A stretch of 64,000 nucleotides of DNA from Blastomyces gilchristii SLH14081 (taxonomy: Eukaryota; Ascomycota; Eurotiomycetes; Onygenales; Ajellomycetaceae), in contig NW_003101681.1 of assembly GCF_000003855.2 (NCBI RefSeq), forward strand, positions 1,681,893 through 1,745,892, given 5' to 3'. Of the stretch, positions 6,481 to 40,348 are shown one piece after another. The stretch's first letter is position 1; every line of letters begins with the position of its first letter. Both the position numbers and the translations under genes were made by a program. The notes below the pieces were generated by a model. It saw only the letters and a program-made list of their open reading frames with translations, searched no databases and had not been told where the DNA came from.

Positions 6481-7170
6481 CGATGTAACAATTGAGAAGT
6501 CTGCAACCTTCTTAATCACCAAGTTAAGAATTATGATGGTCTTTCTCATACTCTGCTCCGTCTGGTAACGGAGAAGCAGAAATGATAACACTGACAACGA
6601 ACTTAACAGTTGCGCATATCCGTTAGTGCTGAAATGTGAGGCTCGTTCAGCACCGGATTGAATTAGCTAAGGAGGGTATTGGATGATCCGAGATAATAAG
6701 AAGTGTGTAGAAATCATGAATAAGATAAGACTTAACGATGGGTTAAAGGAAAACCCTCGGCATCGCCATGACATTGTGCGAGGGACTTCGAGCCAAAAAA
6801 ATCCATGAATGGAGAGAGACATCGTTCCCCGGTAGCTCTAGGGAAAGGAGGGATAAGTGATGGCATGAGCTGAGGAAGCGCCTAAGGTTGAATCTGAGGA
6901 GCCGTGACACGGAGGAAGGAATATCACAACCCTTCTTCGATGTCTATATGGAGCACAGAAGCCTTGAATGGCATTACTATTATCAGACAATTTGATCCGC
7001 TCAATCCTCACTGGTTTCAGGAGAAAGGCGTGGTTTTCCGTTGTAGAACCGTCAAATCAAATCAACTCAAAAGAAATGGAATTATCTTCGCATAGTTTAC
7101 ACACTCGGAAAACGGAGCTGCTGCTTGAAAGGGGCTTGACGGAAAAAAAAAAAGAAAGAAAAAGAATGTT
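6481..7170. other. Intergenic, nothing recognised
   Basis: No conserved ORF. This stretch leads to the 3' side of the minus-strand tRNA-Leu gene. A T-run expected for Pol III termination is present on the minus strand just beyond the tRNA (A-rich 7142-7165 on the plus strand). Confidence 0.5.
7165..7170 (-). terminator. Possible Pol III terminator region
   Basis: Immediately downstream of the tRNA on its own strand lies a T-rich stretch: the plus strand is A-rich from about 7142 to 7165. Runs of T on the non-template strand end Pol III transcripts. The exact stop point is inferred. Confidence 0.4.
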
Positions 7171-7292
7171 GACAAGAGCGAGACTCGAACTCACGCGGGT
7201 TTCCCCATACCGGATCAGGAAATCCTTATTAAGGAATTTCCAAGTGTTCATGCGACTTGAACGGTACGCCTTAACCACTCGGCCATCTTGTC
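7171..7292 (-). tRNA. tRNA-Leu (anticodon CAA) with a 42-nt intron
   Basis: On the minus strand the acceptor arms GACAAGA/TCTTGTC pair perfectly. The D arm carries the A box (TGGCCGAGTGG). The anticodon stem TACCG/CGGTA encloses the loop with anticodon CAA at 7257-7259. The T arm GTGAG-TTCGAGT-CTCGC carries the B box, and a type II long variable arm is present. The anticodon-loop half is separated from its 3' stem by an intron at 7214-7255, at the canonical position after nucleotide 37. Introns in tRNA-Leu(CAA) are a conserved eukaryotic feature. An A-rich run follows on the plus strand, which is a T-rich terminator for Pol III on the transcribed strand. Confidence 0.93.
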
Positions 7293-27152: not shown

Positions 27153-27530
27153 TATATACTCAACCGCTCCACCACGAACTCGCTCAATTTTTCGAATAAG
27201 AACTCGCCGTTAGATCCATCGAAAAGCCCTCGATCATACGAGCATTTTGACCCCATCGCCGACCGCATACCCCGTGTGGTCGTGGAGTTATCCAGCCAAA
27301 TGTGAACCAGACATTGTTTGAAACTCCTGTGTGGGATTATCCCCTGTTCTCCCCTATTACACCACAACCCCGGGCCAAATTGCCATACAAAATGTAAGAT
27401 GAAGAGACCTAGCCATATACACCAATCTTCTTGATTTTAGAAGATTCTCAATCTGTAATTGTGAAGATATCTGAGAAGTGATCTTCATGAAAACCCTGTC
27501 CATCATTAATATTTCAAAACATCAACACTC
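27153..27530. repeat. Unclassified dispersed repeat X, copy 1
   Basis: Sequence starting CAACCGCTCCACCACGAACTC that recurs at 28443. It is about 85-90% identical, and most differences are C/T or G/A, this copy being the more AT-rich. Base composition is much nearer to the gene islands than its surroundings. Short open frames on both strands have no recognisable domain. Confidence 0.7.
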
Positions 27531-28442
27531 TCAACTGTTTTTCTTCTCAGTAAGCTTCTGATTATGTTTTCTGATATAATTTTGCATGGATACAGATGCT
27601 GATATTTGTTTTTATTTATATAAAATCTTTATATATTGACAGATCTGTGTTCACTGATGATAGTGAATGCCTCAATATTGAATCATTGATTGAAAACTTG
27701 AAGAATATAATAATGAAGAAATTATCTGTATTATATATAACTGAGTCTTCTATGTCTCTCTCTGTCTCTTCTGTCACTGTTTCTCCCTCTGCTGCTCTCT
27801 TTCAATCTTCTATTCTTGTCTCTGTTTCTGATTCTTCTGCTTCTACTATCTCTGTTCTTATAACTCTCACTTCTACTACTTCTGCTTCTTCTGCTTCTGC
27901 TGTCTCTGCTTTCATTATCAGCTCTTCTCATTTTAAGAAGATGTTGTGTAGACTTAATGAACTATGTTTCTCAGTGTATATACTTCTGTTCTTCTTACTG
28001 ATCTCTAAAATAATTTATTGTATAAAAACTGTATACAATATAACTATCTGAAGCTTGATTACAGATGCTGATTATTATATTCATTTTAAGTATTTATAAT
28101 AAGATAATTATTCATTTATATCAGAGAATCATCTCTCTCTTCAACAGTGTTGAGATTATAAGTCTTTTCTTTTTTCATCTTTTCTTTCTGACACTGATTT
28201 TTCTGTTCTTAGAGAAAATCATTATGAGTTTTATTATGCACAAAGTCATGATATTCACAGATATTAAGAAACTTTTTACAACTGTTAAATTCAATATTAC
28301 AGATATATTCACTCTGATGAATATCTTCAGAATAATTAATCTGTATCAGTCTATTCTCTGATATTTATTATTCAACTTCATGATGCAGATGAAGAATATC
28401 TGTGTTTTCAGAAACAGAAACATGAATATCATATCACTACAA
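27531..28442. other. AT-rich spacer between the two X repeats
   Basis: About 0.9 kb containing a 151-codon plus-strand frame (27596-28051) with a Ser/Thr/Val low-complexity middle part, and a second frame (28065-28361) of hydrophobic composition. Two ACAGATGCTGAT phrases stand near 27592 and 28062. It may be the interior of a composite element bounded by X, but no class can be named. Confidence 0.35.
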
Positions 28443-29060
28443 CAACCGCTCCACCACGAACTCGCTCGATTTTTCGAATAAGAACCCGCCGATAGATCCA
28501 TCGAAAAGCCCTCGATCATACGAGCATTTTGACCCCATCGCCGACCGCATACCCCGTGTGGTGGTGGAGTTATCCAGCCAAACGTGAACCAGACGTCGTT
28601 CGAAACTCCTGTGTGGGATTAACCCCCATTCTCCCCTACCACACCACAACCCCGGGCCAAATTGCCATACAAATTGTAAGGTGAAGAGACCTAGCCATAT
28701 GCACCAATCTTCTCGATTTTGGAAGATCCCCGATCTGTAGTTGTGGAGATATCTGAGGAGCGACCTCCGCGAAAACCCTGTCCATCTTTGATGTTCCAAA
28801 ACACCAGCGCCAAGTCCCACCCTCGTACCGCCCTTCCTAATCTGGCCCATCCCTGGCAGAAAAATACAAAAAGATACCTCGGTGATAATATCAAGCACAT
28901 AACCAATGGCCACTTCTGAAGTGCAACCTCCGCGGTCTGTCTTCAGTGTATCTAGACATCAATGCCAAGTCTCACCCTTGTACCACCTGTCTCAATCTGG
29001 CCCATCCTCAACAGAAAAGTACAAAAAGATACCTCAGCAACTGTACTTGATACATAATCA
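28443..29060. repeat. Unclassified dispersed repeat X, copy 2 (longer)
   Basis: The GC-richer copy. After the part shared with copy 1 it holds an internal tandem duplication: the segment beginning about 28802 (CGCCAAGTCCCACCCTCGTACC... AAAAAGATACCTC) returns at about 28959 with C-to-T differences. A 158-codon minus-strand frame (28437-28913) spans the first half, but its translation matches nothing that I know. Confidence 0.65.
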
Positions 29061-30109
29061 GCAGACATGACAACTATAAAATCAGTATATCTCAAGATCT
29101 GACTGAGCCTTTGATCCCTGCACAGTGAGATATATTAAATCTAGTTTTAATATCTCAATATTTAATAGATTCTGCAAGAGATTGAGAACAGCAACACTAG
29201 GTTTCTATTAAATTTGAGAATTAACTCTATATTGATATAATCATTGACAAAGTCTTCTATTTTGAGATATAAATAACCAGTTTCTCTACATTCTGCTGAT
29301 AATATTTACATTATCATATAGAAACAGACTTATATTCTCTATAATATCAAGACTCTGAAGAGAGAAAGTCTTGATAGAGAGTATACAGTAGTATATATCT
29401 TAGCAGTTTCTATCTCATTCTTCTGCAGCAGTTAATGTAAAAAAAAAAGATCTTAGAAATAGTTTTTTACTTCTCTTGAAAAAGTAAGGTGTTTTTCTCT
29501 GAGTTTTACACAATATTCTTATAAAGAATTAAAAACAGAGTTGTTTTCTATCATAATTTCATATTCTTTTAAGTAAGAATTACTTTTTCAGTAGCTAAAG
29601 AGCTTTCATTAATACTTAATTCTTTTTTACACTCTTTATTAACTGATTTGAGTTGCACACTTGTTGTGTGAGAAGAATTGAATAATTTAGAATAAAATTG
29701 AATAGTTTTAATCAATTTCTCTGTAAAAAATTGATTTATTTTTTATCAGTTTTTCTCTCAAAAACTGTTATATTATCTGATTTATTATTAATTGATATCA
29801 TACTTTTCCTCACTGTATCTCAAGAAAGAGATTGTAAAGATTTTATTAATTTATCTTAAAAATCAATTTTAGTTTATTAGATTCTCTTCAAAAATCTAAC
29901 CTAGTTACTGAACTAGTGTGAAAAAAAATCAGATGTTTTATATACAAAAGTCTGTTATTCTTCTTTTGAAATAGTCTGATCAACTTTTCAATTGAAAACA
30001 GACTTAAAAACCTCTTAATTGAAACAGTCTGATCAACTTTTCAATTCAAAAGAGTTTAATAAATATCTCAATTGAATTAGTCTGATCAACTTTTCATTGA
30101 GTAAGAACA

Positions 30110-31549
30110 ATGAGTTCAAAAGTACACTCAGTTGATGTGAAAAAGAATGCTTTCTTAAATACTATTTCTGAGATTAAAATTCTGAAGAGAAGAAAGAAAG
30201 AAGAAATAAAGAAACAACAAGTTCTTGAAATACAGAAACTTGAAAAAGCAAGTAAAATTCTTGAAAAGCAGTGTCTGAGTGAGATGAATGAAGAAGTTCT
30301 GTTAATTCTTCATACTCAGACTAGACAACTACAGAAAGTGATCAAGTTCAAACTTGGAATTTCAAACACAGTTCAAAAAACTTTGAAAATTTCTAATACA
30401 ATCACTGACTCTTCAGTTTACTCTTTCTTCTTTTCTACTTCATCTTCTTCTTCTTCTTTAAATTAGAAGAAAACATATGCTCAAGCAGCAGAATCTGCTG
30501 TCTTCAAACCTGCTATCTCTAAATCTGCTATCTCAAAATCTGCTCAAAATTCTGAGAAAACTGAGAAGAATACTGCTCATACTTCTATTGATAGAAGAGT
30601 GAAGAAAAAAATGTAAAAAGAGAAAAATCTTCAAATCTCCAGAAATAGAAGACTTATTCTCAAAGTCTCAAATCAGGACATATTGCAGAGAAATAAGCTA
30701 AACTCAAATCTCATTTTCAGAATTAGAAATGAAATCAACCAGCAGTTCTTTTCTCAGTTAATAACTGATATTAAAGTTTAAAAATTAGTTATAGCTTCAA
30801 TTGAGTTATTCTTCTTTGAAAACTTCATCATTCTGATCACAATACCTGAATTCAGTGCAGAATTTCTTATTCAGAATAAGAATCTCTGAAAGTCAGCAGT
30901 AGAATCTCTGTTAAACACAATAATTCTATCTGAGAGAGATAAAAAGTGAGATAAATTCATTCTTCATGATATTTCAGTTGAAATCTTTGACTGTGAGAAA
31001 GGAATACTACTTCTTAAAAATGAATTGAAAGAATACAATTCTGTTCAACTGAGAAAAGAGCCTGTATGACTTAATTCAATTGAGTTCAGACAGAGTAGAA
31101 GAAATGCCTCTGTTCTAGTGTATATAAAGACACTTGAATAATCAAGAATCTCTGAAGTAAGAGTAGCAGATTTGAAAATGAGAGTTCATAAATACAAAGA
31201 CTCAAGAATGAATCTCAAAGCTCAAACACAGTGTTCAAACTGTCAAAGATATGAATACTTTGCAATCTCTTATTTCAGAGACTCAAAATGTGTATTCTGT
31301 GCTAGAGATCACAAAACTAGTGAGCATAATTATGAAACATGCTTAAAAAGAGATGAAATATGTCAATATACTCTGCTTAAGTGCTTCAATTGCAAAGAAA
31401 AACATGCATCTAGCTCAAAAGAATGTGTATTTGCTTCAAGAACTCAGAAGAACTGGAGAAAAGATGAAGCTCAAAGTGAATTTAAAACTGAAGAGAAAAG
31501 TCAAGCTAGTAAATCTACAACTGTAAGCTTAAAAAGAAGAAATTCTTAA
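30110..31549 (+). pseudogene. LINE A ORF1 (gag-like, zinc knuckles)
   Basis: One continuous frame interrupted by about seven stops, each at a place where a CAA, CAG or TGG codon would be one transition away. The N-terminal part is a basic coiled coil (ILKRRKKEEIKKQQVLEIQK). The C-terminal part has CCHC-type cysteine clusters (CSNCQRYEYFAISYF, CVFCARDHKTSEHNYETC, CFNCKEKHASSSKEC) like those of fungal Tad1-clade ORF1. The protein would bind the element RNA. It cannot be made from this copy. Confidence 0.85.
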
Positions 31550-31749
31550 CTATCTAGATCTTCAAACTCTAACTCTTCAGCTAAGTGTAAACAGAATTTG
31601 AATTCTCAAACTTCTGTTAAGATTAGAGAATTGAGAAATGACTCTGATAATAAACTAGATATAATGCAAGCAGTTGAGATTTCTACTTTTCAAAATAGTT
31701 ATAATCTACTATCTGATAATAGAAATTAGATTCTACTCTATCTCTACTC

Positions 31750-33380
31750 TCTCTTAGTATGAATATACAACAAAAATAATAAAAAAAGTTTAAAAACTCT
31801 TCAAAAATCACATTTATTTAAAATAATGTGAATAGAAACTCAAATTGCATTTATTCTTATCTTCAGATTGTATTTGAATAAAAAGTTGACTTTGTACTTC
31901 TTCAAGAACCAAACTTTGATACTGAGCAAAAGTACATTATTTCTCATTCAAGCTATTACTGCTTTCTTCCTGAAAAATCTGAGATAAAATCAAGAGTAGT
32001 GATCTATGGAAGAAAAAGATCAAGATATCAATTTAATTTAAGATTTGATATTATATCTGACTCTGATATTCTAGTGAGTGATATTATAGATAAAGAGAAT
32101 GAGTTTGATACTATTCAACTTATAAATATCTATAATGAAAAGTCATTGAAAGAAAACAACAATATCTGAACAATTGATAGAGAATTTTTGAATATAACTC
32201 TCTTAAAAAACTCTATAATTATAGAAGACTTTAATACACATCATCTCTGATGAAACTCAGAGTGCATAAGAGCAGTAAGAGCAGATAAACTGATTGAATG
32301 AACTTTTAAACATTCAATAGATTTAGTTAACAAGTCTGATCAATAAATATTCTTTAGAAAAGACATGAAACAGAAATCTATTATAGATCTAACTTTCATA
32401 TCATAAAATCTAATTAAGAAAAGACTTATAAACTGATTTATTAATTCAAATGAAACCTCAGAATCAGGTCATGAGATCATTCAATTTGATATTGAACTGA
32501 GTGAAAAATAAAGAAGTGAAAATCCTCTTCTCTCTAATCAGTATAACTTTGAAAAAGCTGATTGAAAAGCAGTTAAAGAAAGAGTAAAACAGCTGAAATC
32601 TGAAAGACAGAGTGAGCTTTATTGAAATCAAAGTCAAGATATCTTAAATGAAATGCTTGAGAATAGAGCAAAGCTGATTACATCTATTCTTCTAACAAGT
32701 ATTAAAGAAAATATTTCAAAGAAAAAGTCTTCTGAGTATTTCAAACCTTGATGAAATGAGAATATCACTTCTAAAAGAAAGCAATTAGTCACTGCTAAGA
32801 GAGAGTGAAAGAATAACTTAATATCTGATGAAGAGTTCAAAGCTATTTGAAATGAATATTTTTCAGATATTAAAAAAGTCAAAACAGATTACTAAAACAA
32901 ATTTCTTAAAGAAGCATAAGAAAAAGAAGTTTTTAAAGCCTTTAACTATACTAAAACAAGAAGTGTAGCAAAGCTTTCAACCTTAGAATATGAATTTCAG
33001 AATGAATTGTATACAGCAAACTCTTCTGAGGAAAAATATCAAGCTTTTATGAGAATTCTCTTTCAAAACTCATCACATTTAGAAGAGAAGAATATGTCAT
33101 TTCATGAATATATTGATGAAAATAACTGGGAATGGCCTGAGCTTACAGGTGATGAACTAGAGTCAGTAATATTCTCAAGTTCAATTAAAACTGCTGCAGG
33201 GCCTGATTCAATTAATTATTTAATTATTCAAAACACATATTTCTACTTGAAGAATGAATATTTTGAGCTCTTTTTCAATCTCTTAAGAAATGATTATCAT
33301 TCTGAATGCTGGAGAGAAGCTACTGAAGTAATCCTTGCAAAACCTAATAGAAAAGCTTCAGTTTCTAAGTCATATAAAGT
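31750..33380 (+). pseudogene. LINE A ORF2, endonuclease and start of reverse transcriptase
   Basis: Fragments of an apurinic-type endonuclease are visible: FVLLQEPN with the catalytic Glu (about 31890), and IIEDFNTHH in place of the usual GDFN-H (about 32220). The reverse transcriptase begins with TAAGPDSI (about 33190-33215). Numerous TGA/TAG/TAA stops from RIP. The SINE at 33381 interrupts it. Confidence 0.8.
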
Positions 33381-33751
33381 GCCCCGGTGGCCGAATGGTT
33401 AATGCGGCCACCTGGTAGCACCTTGGCGTGGGAAACCAAGGCGCGTGGGTTCGAAACCCGCAGGGAATACATTAAATCCGGAACTCAAGCACCTCAGGTT
33501 TCTAATAAATACAGAGGTGTACAAATCACTTCAATGAATTGCTCTATGTTCCTGAGCTGGGAAGTTATTATCGCATGTATCTAATTGTCACTTCTTTGTA
33601 TTTTCCTATGTTCTTGTTATCTTGGTGTGGTCTCAACACCTGTATTTCCTCCTGTATAATCAACACTTGACCTGTATTTAACATCACGCAAGGACTCATC
33701 ATAAGCTCCGCTTGCATATGAGTATAATGAAAGAATAATAATAATAATAAT
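33381..33751 (+). mobile_element. tRNA-derived SINE, copy 1 (371 bp)
   Basis: Begins GCCCCGGTGGCCGAATGG, with a Pol III A box (TGGCCGAATGGTTAATGC), and has a B box GGTTCGAAACC about 60 bp downstream. A 280-bp unrelated body and an (AAT)n tail follow. The insertion is flanked by AAGTCATATARAGT (33367-33380 and 33752-33765, one A/G mismatch), and the LINE reading resumes without loss on the other side. GC content is normal and CpG is retained. It is 96% identical to the copy at 36516. It probably relies on the resident LINE, whose 3' end has the same (AAT)n. Confidence 0.9.
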
Positions 33752-34525
33752 AAGTCATATAGAGTAATATCTCTGTTGAACTATTTAAGAAAAGTTCTAG
33801 AAAAGATAATAGTTACTAGATTATCTTTTATAAGCTCTATTAGTAATTCTCTTCTATTTAATGAATAAATAAGAGATAGAAAACAATATTCTGCAATTGA
33901 CACTGTTCTCTCAGTTCTTTATAATATTTAAGTAGCAAAGCATGAAGACCTGGTCTCAACTGCAGTTTTTATTGACATAAAAGATGCATTTAATCATGTT
34001 TCAAAGTCTAAGATGATTCAAACTTTAAAGATGTTAAAACTGTCACTTTCTCTAATAAAATAAGTTGATTGTTTCATGTCTAAAAGAATTATACAACTAT
34101 TCTTTGATGAAAGAAAATAAGATAAAACTGAGATAAAAATAGAAGTATTATAAGAATCTTCAATCTCACCTGTTTTATTTGTAATATACACTGCATATTT
34201 ATTCAAGAATAGAGAGATGAAAATAGTGAGATCTTCAAGTTATGTAGATAATATTGATCTTCTCTACAGTTCAAAGACAATCAAAGAGAATTTAGAAGTA
34301 ATTGAGAAAGCAGTAAAGAAAATCTTTGTTAGAGCAGATATCAATCTAATTTAATTTAATATGAATAAAACTGAGTTAATTCACTTTTTTTTCAGATTTA
34401 ATAAGAAAGAACTAGGTCTAACTCTTCTGAATAAAGAGATTAAACTCAGTTTGAATGTCAAATAACTAGGAGTATGGTTAAACTCCAAGTTGAATTTTAA
34501 ATATCATATTCAACAAAGAATTATC
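33752..34525 (+). pseudogene. LINE A reverse transcriptase segment
   Basis: Continues ORF2 after the SINE with fragments such as LLNYLRKVLEKIIVTRLSF and SSYVDNIDLLYSSK, where the polymerase Y-x-D-D motif is altered to YVDN by a G-to-A change. The segment ends at the target site of the bipartite element (AACAAAGAATTATC, 34512-34525). Confidence 0.8.
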
Positions 34526-34606
34526 GCCAGCGTGGCCCAGTTAGTAAGACTGGTAACCAAGGCCGCACACATTAGAGGTGTGTGGGTTCAAATCCCACCG
34601 CTGGCA
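34526..34606 (+). other. tRNA-like head of bipartite retroposon 1
   Basis: GCCAGCG at the 5' end pairs perfectly with CGCTGGC at the 3' end. A T arm GTGGG-TTCAAAT-CCCAC (B box GGTTCAAATCC) and an A-box-like TGGCCCAGTTAGTAAGAC are present, and ACC follows the acceptor stem. The central arm is not a standard anticodon arm, so I call it tRNA-like, not a tRNA gene. It would act as an internal Pol III promoter. Confidence 0.75.
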
Positions 34607-35276
34607 CCTGCCACTTCTTACCCATGAAAGCCCCCATGTAATAGAGGCTGAGCCTAATTAGTAAGGCTTGGTGCAGGGTAGAACTCTCTACTGCAAGCCA
34701 AGCCACTAGTTAAGTGAGATCCTGCGAACACTCACCAGGGCCGGTATGAGGTGTCAATGTCCCACTATTCTACTGTGCACCTGTCAAGGTTCTAATGATA
34801 TAGAGCCAAGCCTAATGTAGTGATTATACACTACTTAAGTGAGTCCCTAACTAGGGCTGTCATCAGAGCCTAGCTCTCCCTCAAATACAGAGAATGATTT
34901 TGAAAACCATCTGACTAGCAGGCCTAGACATGCATCTAGGCTCTAGGCAGGGCACTCTGATAGGCTAGAGCCTGCAAGCTCCCTGCCAAGCCCTAATACT
35001 GGCAGGGAGGACTGCAGTCATCAAGCCTATAATTAGTCTCTAACGCAGAGCGAGGTCACAACAGCTGATTGATAGGCCTATGGGCATCTAATGAGGCCGA
35101 GATCAGCAACCGGAAGCTTGGTGTGTACATCATCAAGTGAGCGGTGGCAGTCACTAACTAACACCCCTGGAAATTAGTGACTGGCCCGAGAGAACAGACA
35201 CGGTGATCAGTTAATTATAGAGGGTTAAATGTAATTAGCTTAAGATGCATTCTGCGGGTGGCTAGCGCCTGTAGCT
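34607..35276 (+). other. Non-coding body of bipartite retroposon 1
   Basis: About 670 bp with near-normal GC, several self-complementary stretches (e.g. GGCAGGG/CCCTGCC around 34950-35005) and no ORF. Its last 180 bases share phrases with the body at 46526-47166: TTGATAGGC, GAGAGAACAGA...GTGATCAGTTA, TAGCTTAAG, CTGTAGCT. These two are therefore diverged members of one family. Confidence 0.75.
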
Positions 35277-38200
35277 TCAATTCCTAAGTTATATAGAGTA
35301 ATATCCCTATTGAACTGCCTAGGAAAGGTTTTAGAAAAGATAATAGCTACTCAACTATCTTTTATAAGCTCTATAGATGATTCTCTTTTATTCAGTGAAT
35401 AAATGAGAGATAGAAAACAGTGTTCTGCAATTGACACTGTTCTCTCAGTTATTCATAATATTCAAATAGCAAAGCATGAGAGTCTGGTCTCAACTGCAGT
35501 TTTTATTAATATAAAAGAAGCATTTGATTATGTTTCAAAGTCAAAGTTAATTCAGATATTGAAGATATTAAAACTGTCACTTTCTCTAATAAAATGAGTT
35601 AACTGTTTTATATCTAAAAGAAGTATACAACTCTTCTTTGATGAAATGAAATAAGACAAGACTGAGATAAAAATAGAAGTATCACAGAAATCTTTAATCT
35701 CACTCATTTTATTTACAATATACACTGTATATCTATTTAAAAATAGAAATATGAGAATAGTGTAATCTCTAAGTTATGTGAATGATATTAGTCTAGTCTA
35801 CAGCTCAAAAACTATCAAAGAGAATTTGAAAGTAATTGAAGAAGCTGTAAAGAAAATCTTTATTAGAGCAGATATCAATTAAATTTAATTTAATATGAAT
35901 AAAACTGAGTTAATTCACTTCTTTTCTAGATTCAATGAGAAAGAACTATCTCTAACTCTTTTAAATAGAGAGATTAAACCCAGTGTAAATATCAAATGAT
36001 TAGAAGTATGATTAAACTTCAAGTTGAATTTTAAATATCATATTCAACAAAGAACTGTCGAGGCAGAAAGACTATTAAACAACATAATCAGACTATTAAA
36101 TACAGAGAGAGGTCTATTCTTTCAGGCTATGAGACAGTTATATATAGCCTGTATTACATCAGTAGCTGATTATGAAGTTCAAGTTTGATGAAATAATCAA
36201 GAGAATTTCACTGAACTCTTTCAAAGTCTGTAAAACAGAGTCTTGAGAAGAATTCTGAAAGCATTCAAATCATCTTCTATTAAAGCAATAAAAATTAAAG
36301 CTTCAATTCCTTCTTCTGCTATTAGATTTGAAAAGGCCTGTATAAACTATACTCTGAGAGTTGTAAAGATGAGCTTAAATCATATAATCAGAGAAAGAGT
36401 CTCTTCTTCATTTTCATTAATTAACTCTGGAAATGAACTGGATTGAAATAGATTTCTTGATTGAAATGAAAATAATTCTTTAAAGAAAATGCCTTCTCAA
36501 CTGTACAGACTATGCGCCCTGATGGCCGAATGGTTAATGCGGCCACCCGGTAGCACCTTGGCGTGGGAAATCAAGGCGCGTGGGTTCGAAACCCGCAGGG
36601 GATACATTAAATCCAGAACTCAAGCACCTCAGGTTTCTAATAAATACAGAGGTGTACAAATCGCTTCAATGAATTGCTCTATGTTCCTGGGCTGGGAAGT
36701 TATTATCACATGTATCTAATTGTCACTCCTTTGTATTTTCCTATGTTCTTGTTATCTTGGCGTGATCTCAACACCTGTATTTCCTTCTGTATAACCAACA
36801 CTTGACCTGTATTTAACATCACGCAAGGACTCATCATAAGCTCCGCTTGCATATGAGTATAATGAAAGAATAATAATAATAATAATAAGTACAGACTATG
36901 CTCTCTGATTAAAAATCAATTTTCTTCTTTAAATGTTGAAAAAGTTGATCATGAGAAGTTATCTCTCTGAAGAGAAAAGCTTGAATCTCTTATAAACTTA
37001 CAAATAAGTGAACTATCAAAAGAGAAAGAATATGAACAGTATTTAAAGAGAATTTCTATAATCAATATAAAAGACTCTATTCTGATTTATTCAGATGACT
37101 CAAAAAATGAGAACTTGAATAGATTAGATGCAGGCATTGCTTATACTGAAGATAATATCAATTTTATCTCAGATTTCTGAAATCTAGGCTCTGAATGTGA
37201 AGTCTTTGATACTGAACTATTTGTAATAGTGAAAGCTTTCAAACTCATTGAAATAAAATCTTATAAAAGAGAAAATTGTTTGAAAGAGATATGAATATTC
37301 TCTGATAGTCAAGCTGCTTTAAAAAGACTTAGAAATAGTCAGATTTATAATGATCAAATGAATCTTGAACTGATCTTAAACTCTATTTTAAAAATTCAAA
37401 AGAGAAGAATATCAAAGCTGATAATTTATCTGCACTGAGTTCCTGCTCATATGAATATTCATGGCAATGAATTGGCTGATTCAGCTGCAAAAAAGAGTGC
37501 AGAATTAAGCAGATCTATTCAAAAAATTATGTTCTGGTCTTTTATAAAGAGAAAAATAAAAGAATCTTGTTTAGACAAGTGAAATGAAAGCTGGCAGAAA
37601 CAAAAGAAGAGTATATATTATTCAAGATTTAAAATAAAACCCAAGTGAAAATCTTGTTCAATTAAATGTAAAAAGAAAATATTCTCATCTATAATACAGC
37701 TGAAACTAGAACATGGCTATTTCAAATCTTATATACAAAGATTTGATGATAGATTTGACTCAATAGAATGCTCATTCTGCAATATAAATGAGAATCCTGA
37801 GTATATTGTAATGCACTGTGCATTATACAATAGTCTCAGAGTCAGATTGAAAGAGAAGTATGATCTAAATCAATTAAATATGAGATTCTTATTCTCAACT
37901 GAGACAGGAATTAAATACTTAATAGACTTTCTATCAGAAACTCAAGCAGCTACAAGAAAATAGCTAAATTCAGAATTAACTGAATATGAAGAGGAGGAAA
38001 TCAACCAGATATAGTCTGTTAAAACAGCTATATACTATCTTTTAATAATTTGTTTTATTACAGTCTTTCTTTATTTTATCTTTTTCTTTCAATTTCTTTC
38101 TGTCTATCTATTTAATGTGTCTATCTTTAAGACTGTGTTCTCTTTTCCTTTGTCATGATATTGTCAAATGATTTCAAAGTATGAGATGATGTTAAAACAC

Positions 38201-38383
38201 TGCAATTTGTAAACAGTTTTTGTATTCTGAGCTGGAATTTTCTGATTTTGCATATCTGAAATTGATGAATGTATAATAGTTAACCTTACAGATATAGGAA
38301 AAACCCTGAGAATTAAAAGTTCTCAGGTAGATGTCATAGTCTCTGACTGCATACATCTATAATTGAAGAATAATAATAATAAT
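35277..38383 (+). pseudogene. LINE B: 3' half of LINE ORF2 with RNase H and 3' UTR
   Basis: Aligns with LINE A from AGCTTCA.TT.CTAAGT (33354 in A) to the tail. It covers the reverse transcriptase C-terminal part and an RNase H (ILIYSDDSKNEN, FDTELFVIVKAFKLIE, FSDSQAALKRL, HMNIHGNELADSAAKKS). The C-terminal zinc finger CSFCNINENPEYIVMHC closes it. RIP-type stops throughout. The SINE at 36516 splits it. Confidence 0.8.
36516..36888 (+). mobile_element. tRNA-derived SINE, copy 2 (373 bp)
   Basis: Flanked by GTACAGACTATGC (36503-36515 and 36889-36901, perfect 13 bp). Begins GCCCTGATGGCCGAATGG and has the same A and B boxes, body and (AAT)n tail as copy 1. By my alignment the two copies differ at 14 sites, all C/T or G/A transitions. 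It sits inside LINE B, so it is younger than that insertion. Confidence 0.92.
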
Positions 38384-38397
38384 AACAAAGAATTATC

Positions 38398-40341
38398 AAG
38401 GCAGAGAGACTACTGAATAGTATAATCAGACTATCAAATACTGAGAGAGGTCTATCTTTTCAGGCTATAAGACAGTTATACATAGCCTGTATTACCTCAG
38501 TAGCTGATTATGAAGTTCAAGTTTGATGAAACAATCAAGATAACTTCACTGAACTGTTTCAAAGTCTATAAAACAGAGCTTTGAGAAGAATTCTGAGAGC
38601 ATTCAAATCATCTCCTATTAAAGCAATGGAAATTAAAGCCTCAATTCCATCTCCTGCTATTCAATTTGAAAAGACCTGTATGAACTATGCTCTGAGAGTC
38701 ATAAAGATGAGCTTAAATCATATAATCAGAGAAAGACTCTCTTCTTCATTTCCATCAGTTAACTCAGGAAATGAACTGGATTGAAATAGATTTCTTGATT
38801 GAAATGAGAATAATACTTTAAAGAAAATGCCCTCTCAACTGTATAGACTATGTTCACTTATTAAGAATCAATTTTCTTCATTAAATGTTAAGAAAATTGA
38901 TCATGAGAAGATATCTCTCTGGAGAGAAAAGCTGAAATCTCTCATAGACTTATAAATAAGTAAACTGTCTAAAGAGAGAGAATATGAACAGCATTTGAAG
39001 AAGATCTCTATAATCAATATAAAAGACTCTATTCTGATTTACTCAGATGGCTCAAATAATGAGAATTTGAATAGATTAGATGCAGACATTGCTTATACTG
39101 AAGATAATATCAATTTTATCTCAGATTTCTGAACTTTAGGCTGTGAATCTGAAGTCTTTGATGCTGAACTATTTGCAATAGTGAAAGCTTTCAAACTCAT
39201 TGAAATAAAATCTTATAAAAGAGGAAATAGTTTGCAAGAGACATGGATATTCTCTGATAGTCAAGCTGCTTTAAAAAGACTTAGAAATAGTCAGATTTAT
39301 AATGATCAAATGAATCTTGATCTGATTTTAAACTCTGTTTTGAAAATTCAAAAGAGAAGAACATCTAAACTGATAATTCATCTGCATTGAGTTCCTGCTC
39401 ATATGAATATTCATGGCAATGAATTGACTGATTCAGCTGCAAAAAAGAGTTCAGAATTAAGCAGATCTATTCAAAAAACAGTGTCCTGGTCTTTCATAAA
39501 GAGAAAGATAAAAGAATCTTGTTTAAACAAGTGAAATGAAAGCTGGCAGAAATAAAAGAAGAGCATACATTATTCAAGATTTGAGACAAAATCAAAGTGG
39601 AAATCTTGTTCAAGTAAATGCAAAAAGAAAATATTCTCATTCATAATTCAGCTAAAACTAGAACATGATTATTTCAAATCCTATATACAAAGATTTGATG
39701 ATAGATTTGATTCAACAGAGTGCTCATTCTGCAATACAAATGAGAATCCTGAGTATATTGTAATACATTGTGCATTATACAATAATATCAGAGTCAGATT
39801 AAAGAAGAAGTATGATTTAAATCAATTAAATATAAGGTTCTTATTCTCAACTGAGACAGGAATTAAATACTTAATAGACTTTCTATCAGAAACTCAAGCA
39901 GCTACAAGAAAATGAGTGAATTCAGAAGTATCTGAATATGAAGAGACGGAAATTAATTAGATATAGTCTGTTAAAACAGCTATACACTATTTTTTAATAA
40001 TTTTATTTTATTATAGTCTCTCTTTACTGTACTTGTTTCTTTCTGTTCTTTTCTATCTATCTATTTAATGTGTCTATCTTTAAGACTATGTTCTTTTTTC
40101 CTTTGTTATGATATTTTCAAATGATTTCAAAGTATCAGAAGATGTTGAAATACTGCAATTTGTAAACAGTTTTTGTATTCTGAGCTGAAATTTTCTGATT
40201 TTGCATATCTGAAATTAATAAATGTATAATAGTTGACTCTATAGATATAGGAAAAACCCTGAGAACTAAAGGTTCTCAGATAGATGTTATAGTCTCTGAC
40301 TGCATACATCTATAATTGAAGAATAATAATAATAATAATAA
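38398..40341 (+). pseudogene. LINE A RNase H and 3' UTR segment
   Basis: Resumes LINE A after the bipartite insertion. Shows RNase H motifs ILIYSDGSNNEN (first Asp), FDAELFAIVKAFKL (Glu), FSDSQAALKRL (Asp) and HMNIHGNELTDSAAKKS (His). A CSFCNTNENPEYIVIHC zinc finger follows, then a stop at about 39958. The 3' UTR carries CTCTCTTTACTGTACTTG and ends in TTGAAG plus (AAT)n. Confidence 0.85.
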
Positions 40342-40348
40342 TCATTCT

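Follow-up and report, generated by a model that had tools for sequence, protein, structure and literature searches.

A tRNA-headed non-coding RNA joined to 5'-shortened LINE sequence at many positions in Blastomyces gilchristii

Results

The insertion in the window

The window, a stretch of 64,000 nucleotides, contains a LINE copy (LINE A) interrupted by an insertion that consists of a tRNA-like head, a non-coding body and a LINE part (Table 1). An earlier note on the window had taken a 14-bp duplication to bracket these three parts, and this holds exactly: at up to one mismatch, AACAAAGAATTATC has only the two tabulated matches in the window, against a chance expectation of 0.07. The insertion begins, as had also been claimed, with the first base of the tRNA-like fold, the Rfam tRNA match starting at model position 1. 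Since the uninterrupted target site has 25 matches in LINE DNA fetched from the genome (some places counted twice), LINE A resumes without loss on the far side, again as proposed. The size given for the unit needs revision: 3.86 kb are indeed bracketed, but they also contain a SINE that arrived later with its own duplication, so that the chimera proper measures about 3.5 kb.

Table 1. Features of the insertion and of the LINE that hosts it, in window coordinates
Feature	Position	Strand	Remarks
Host LINE A, 5' side of insertion	28437..34525 (start approximate)	+	SINE nested at 33377-33751
Left target-site duplication AACAAAGAATTATC	34512..34525	+	exact 14-bp match with right copy
tRNA-like head	34526..34606	+	Rfam tRNA, 32.4 bits; A box 34533-34543, B box 34585-34595
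Full-length 749-nt non-coding RNA copy (head and body)	34526..35274	+	both ends shared by 67 of 68 perfect-head copies
9-bp terminal hairpin; final base is the joint	35252..35274	+	folding
LINE part of chimera, 5' of nested SINE	35275..36515	+	
Nested tRNA-headed SINE, later arrival	36516..36889	+	duplication TACAGACTATGC at 36504-36515 and 36890-36901
Remaining LINE part, with RNase H domain and (AAT)n tail	36890..38383	+	
Right target-site duplication AACAAAGAATTATC	38384..38397	+	identical to left copy
Host LINE A, 3' side of insertion	38384..40342	+	

Pfam searches of the LINE pieces matched RNase H only, with no reverse transcriptase or endonuclease match in three damaged pieces. The 5' part of LINE A is GC-rich (28437-29000), and a related piece lies at about 27400-27540; Tad1-like elements are named in the available text of one Blastomyces genome paper. 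The tRNA-headed SINE, about 371 bp long and with a 3' end like the LINE tail, occurs at both places given in Table 1, the copy at 33377-33751 with the duplication AAGTCATATA and the one at 36516-36889 with TACAGACTATGC. Its best genome hits are 97-98% identical, and by first-look candidates (1156 vs 244) it is about five times as common as the tRNA-headed body. Elsewhere in the window, the product of a flanking gene shares 90% identity with a Blastomyces parvus protein (Golgi apyrase), and an Rfam tRNA match of 43.7 bits lies on the minus strand at 7170-7292; because it is 123 bases long, this tRNA perhaps has an intron.

The tRNA-headed RNA

The head scores above the Rfam gathering score for tRNA (29 bits); ARAGORN, run with the bacterial code on the window and on six loci, reported no tRNA. 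In the window copy the A box and the B box are each one change off consensus, and in the majority sequence of 49 copies, which is 749 nt long, both are exact (A box TGGCCCAGTTG at base 8, B box GGTTCGAATCC at base 60). The A box pattern is retained in 45 of the 49 copies and GGTTCGA in 35. Pol III boxes thus lie within the tRNA-like head, as they do in tRNA-derived SINEs, and the 749-nt RNA is probably made by Pol III. A source gene for it was not found in the genome search.

For one copy, the folding energy is -291 kcal/mol, with a z-score of -3.8 from 20 shuffles. The 23 bases at the 3' end make up a 9-bp hairpin, and the joint lies at its final base. Between the body and the LINE tail there is no match, whereas the SINE matches that tail over at least 28 bases in most LINE ends tested. 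The fixed 3' tail that a tRNA-derived SINE has of its own is therefore absent here: the body ends in the hairpin, and LINE parts of varied length supply the tail. A body end of CTGTAG could have been the end of a tRNA-Tyr exon, attached through tRNA splicing; we rejected this idea since the majority sequence ends in CCCGTAG.

The 49 bodies differ from the majority sequence by a mean of 5.8%, and 1628 of the 2114 differences (77%) are C-to-T or G-to-A. Within body copies L001-L060, C-to-T changes affect 18-22% of CpG, 13-15% of CpC, 4% of CpA and 1% of CpT sites, a pattern that is a RIP-like process of unusual context. Such a process would make TGA from TGG codons, and changes of this kind are seen in the LINE frame.

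Copies in the genome

Searches of the 74.8-Mb genome returned 168 matches to a head pattern (87 + 81; control 0 + 0) and 156 to a pattern of the body 3' end (82 + 74; control 0 + 1). Against these totals, 122 copies were examined on the 3' side: 108 from whole-body and 3'-end searches, and 14 from perfect heads with no partner among the 100 listed of the 156 ends. The body ends in GTAG and passes into sense LINE sequence in 121 of the 122 (108 of 108 and 13 of 14); the exception, L125, breaks off at body base 193.

The RNA part is nearly always complete, with 67 of 68 perfect-head copies reaching the same two ends. Among the 48 of these with an end among the matches listed, 46 measure 738-751 bases, one 696 and one 1132; six others span the whole body, and 13 of the remaining 14 reach its end. 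Conversely, 29 of 30 copies selected by their 3' end carry the head in its place, the sequence upstream of the thirtieth being N.

On the LINE side, 89 distinct positions of LINE A account for the 121 joints, all on its plus strand. Three of the 108 copies could be placed only with the LINE reference extended upstream and a looser E-value limit; the placement of L023 relies on a 38-base LINE match, and in L083, whose entry point is close to the LINE 5' end, the first five bases do not align. The earlier note had taken different LINE entry points among independent genomic copies as a confirmation of template switching, and had named two findings that would speak against its reading, a body always fused to the same LINE position and a body running on past its end elsewhere. 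The 89 positions are such different entry points and rule out the first of these findings, and in none of the 122 examined copies does the body continue past GTAG. Nor were solo copies of the RNA seen among these 122, of the 168 head places.

Independent insertions

Target duplications could be sought in 17 copies whose LINE tail lies inside the fetched DNA. Thirteen have their own duplication directly before the head (11 exact, of 12-17 bases including those shared with the AAT tail, and two with one mismatch), a feature that the earlier note had also asked for in independent copies; the longest match in 272 mismatched control pairs was 7 bases. In the other four, L016 and L019 were anchored on the wrong tail, L027 is cut by the end of the stretch, and L051 gave no match. 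These duplications bear on the idea that a body copy and a LINE copy were inserted separately and are neighbours by chance, as might happen in AT-rich nests full of LINE copies. In 13 of 17 readable copies, and in the window copy too, both parts share a single bracketing duplication, while the LINE is in sense orientation and the joint is at the last base of the body in 121 of 122 copies, so that we find separate insertion scarcely credible.

We also asked how the copies that share a LINE position are related, given that 16 positions, holding 40 of the 108 copies, occur more than once. Such recurrence would be expected of one composite element that simply transposes. However, bodies at the same LINE position differ by 0.083 (12 pairs) and others by 0.086 (1164 pairs), and the twelve closest body pairs all have different LINE entries. 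Same-position copies being no more similar to each other than other pairs, the chimera is not merely transposing, and with 89 entry positions against it as well, a composite element is very improbable. The recurrence itself fits a set of preferred sites, as in MINE: draws from the 224 ANNTC sites of the LINE predict 18.9 recurring positions, close to the 16 observed, compared with 0.7 for uniform draws. If only the 71 ANATC sites are drawn from, 32 are predicted, which overstates recurrence and counts against the explanation that we favor below.

The joint

The joints are seamless and carry a motif on the LINE side, A-N-A^T-C (^ marks the joint). With the closest fetched LINE copies as reference, A is found at -3 in 77 of 88 joints, at -2 in 54 and at -1 in 64, T at +1 in 65 and C at +2 in 45; for one of the 121 copies no usable relative was available. 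With LINE A alone as reference (n = 89), the counts are 73, 53, 61, 62 and 46, with binomial chances of 4e-17, 4e-5, 8e-9, 4e-13 and 1e-15 from -3 to +2. Microhomology with the body end is lacking in 83 of the 89 distinct joints, where 85% would be expected to lack it; two joints overlap by one base and four by two. The 4-bp AGCT overlap that the earlier note saw in the window copy is accordingly not general, and there only AG can be body: since the body ends at GTAG (35274) in other copies, CT is LINE sequence. The leading base is unlike every LINE copy in 5 of 88 joints.

The joints show no clear codon phase. Folding energies of 40-base stretches beside them are near those of controls, and the mean unpaired probability of bases -3 to -1 is slightly higher (0.59-0.65 vs 0.48-0.52 in controls). 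Trans-splicing by the spliceosome or by group I or II introns requires AG and other specific neighbors; the LINE side lacks these, and we rejected both.

For comparison, 23 LINE-only 5' ends were fetched. Among the first 20, 13 have a visible start or break; the three fetched later have no start in reach. An adjacent duplication is present in three (L141, L144 and L145), which show no clear motif but, at n = 3, are too small a control. In a search for other RNA partners, Rfam returned nothing at the gathering score in seven LINE-only loci. The pieces upstream of L140, L150 and L151 have matches in other fetched loci or in the window and are therefore repeats, not RNA partners, and L153, on visual inspection, resembles a decayed body copy. 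Two LINE copies, L148 and L155, lie at different places on the same contig with the same LINE 5' break and near-identical flanks on both sides; they are probably a duplicated segment.

Discussion

Proposed mechanism and alternatives

Based on these findings, we propose that the copies very probably constitute a MINE-type bipartite retroposon family, in which a tRNA-headed RNA is fused to 5'-shortened LINE RNA. In this scheme, a structured 749-nt RNA with a tRNA-like 5' head would be joined via its exact 3' end to 5'-shortened LINE RNA, mostly at A-N-A^U-C sites. The LINE machinery would then start at the LINE tail and continue copying through the joint as far as the head's first base, and the whole fusion would be inserted with a target duplication, mostly with one joining event per copy. 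Because the RNA has no LINE-type tail of its own, it would spread only as LINE fusions.

How the two RNAs come together is a separate matter. The earlier note had the reverse transcriptase switch templates while copying LINE RNA; this can only be inferred, since the two RNAs may be joined before reverse transcription. We lean toward cleavage of LINE RNA at the motif and end-to-end joining, whether by a run-off template jump or by ligation, over a mid-template switch guided by homology. For the jump, the LINE reverse transcriptase would halt, or reach the 5' end of a cut LINE RNA, and from there move to the 3' end of the tRNA-headed RNA, and we give this an even chance. It would account for a fixed acceptor end and a variable donor position, as described for MINE in the main text of PMC2104539, and the R2 reverse transcriptase is described as jumping end to end in vitro (PMC8857657). 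According to the same text, however, such a jump by R2 depends on an addition or overhang of one or two bases able to pair with the end of the acceptor, which sits poorly with the few joints here that have a non-LINE leading base or overlap the body end. Moreover, pairing of the cDNA with the acceptor fails to explain the strongest motif base, because -3 lies in LINE RNA that is not copied.

Another possibility is that cleavage of LINE RNA at A-N-A^U-C is followed by its ligation to the tRNA-headed RNA, presumably through tRNA ligase in fungi, and that the chimeric RNA is then retrotransposed; we take this as a serious candidate, although on balance we would not expect it to prove correct. The seamless joints, with a motif spanning both sides of the cut, speak for ligation, but we know of no nuclease with an A-N-A^U-C cutting preference, and the control of LINE-only 5' ends is too small, with three adjacent duplications among 23 fetched. 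Ligation before reverse transcription is the stated origin of U6/L1 chimeras in the text of PMC8857657 and one of two in that of PMC13174262. A stricter form, in which cutting and joining at the RNA level are directed by sequence and the cut in the LINE RNA lies three bases 3' of a fixed base (A in this family), seems to us rather unlikely; in MINE, position -3 is occupied by G in 11 of 12 distinct MGL sites, as counted from Table 3 of PMC2104539. If it were true, the RNA would have a retroposon lifestyle of its own, as a parasite of LINE RNA joining and not of LINE tail recognition.

The 89 mapped positions form a larger set than the 28 sites of the MINE set in the main text of PMC2104539. 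With a set of this size, both reverse transcriptase jumping vs RNA ligation and the question of what fixes the joint become testable. The family also places the MINE architecture outside Magnaporthe, and it offers a route that brings tRNA-headed RNAs together with LINE tails, which may be how the birth of a SINE begins.

Comparison with known systems

The closest relative in architecture is MINE (WEIRD-MGL) of Magnaporthe. As presented in the main text of PMC2104539, it has a full-length non-coding RNA as 5' part and a 5'-shortened LINE on the same strand as 3' part, with many joint sites (six of them recurring), duplications, a sequence motif at the joint and no solo copies found. The present family shares the full-length 5' RNA part (67 of 68), the variable sense LINE cut (89 positions) and the single duplication (13 of 17). 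It differs in its 749-nt RNA with a tRNA-type head, the word tRNA being absent from that main text; in its motif, which is GCC^A/U there; and in the number of joints mapped, 121 compared with 33 chimeras there. WEIRD is set beside the tRNA-headed RNA by its description in PMC2104539, not by sequence.

The U6/L1 chimeras of mammals, as described in the available text of PMC4476161 and PMC13174262, likewise carry a full-length small RNA in sense on a 5'-shortened LINE, but RNA and LINE are different and there is no long tRNA-headed RNA. The earlier note knew of no tRNA-headed chimera of this type. tRNA/L1 chimeras, with tRNA sequence beside a LINE and inserted together with it, are published in mammals (PMC13174262). 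However, the 21 loci given there are mostly antisense tRNA halves ascribed to twin priming, whereas the fusion described here, with a full-length tRNA-headed RNA in sense, is different.

tRNA-derived SINEs share with our RNA the tRNA head with Pol III boxes and the use of LINE enzymes, but they have a fixed 3' end with a LINE-like tail, which the body here lacks. That the SINE matches the LINE tail and the body does not fits a remark in PMC4476161, where LINE clades with strict tail recognition are said to make U6 copies only as chimeras. Judged by the open-access literature as far as we searched it, the tRNA-type head, the copy number and the A-N-A^T-C motif are new among such chimeras.
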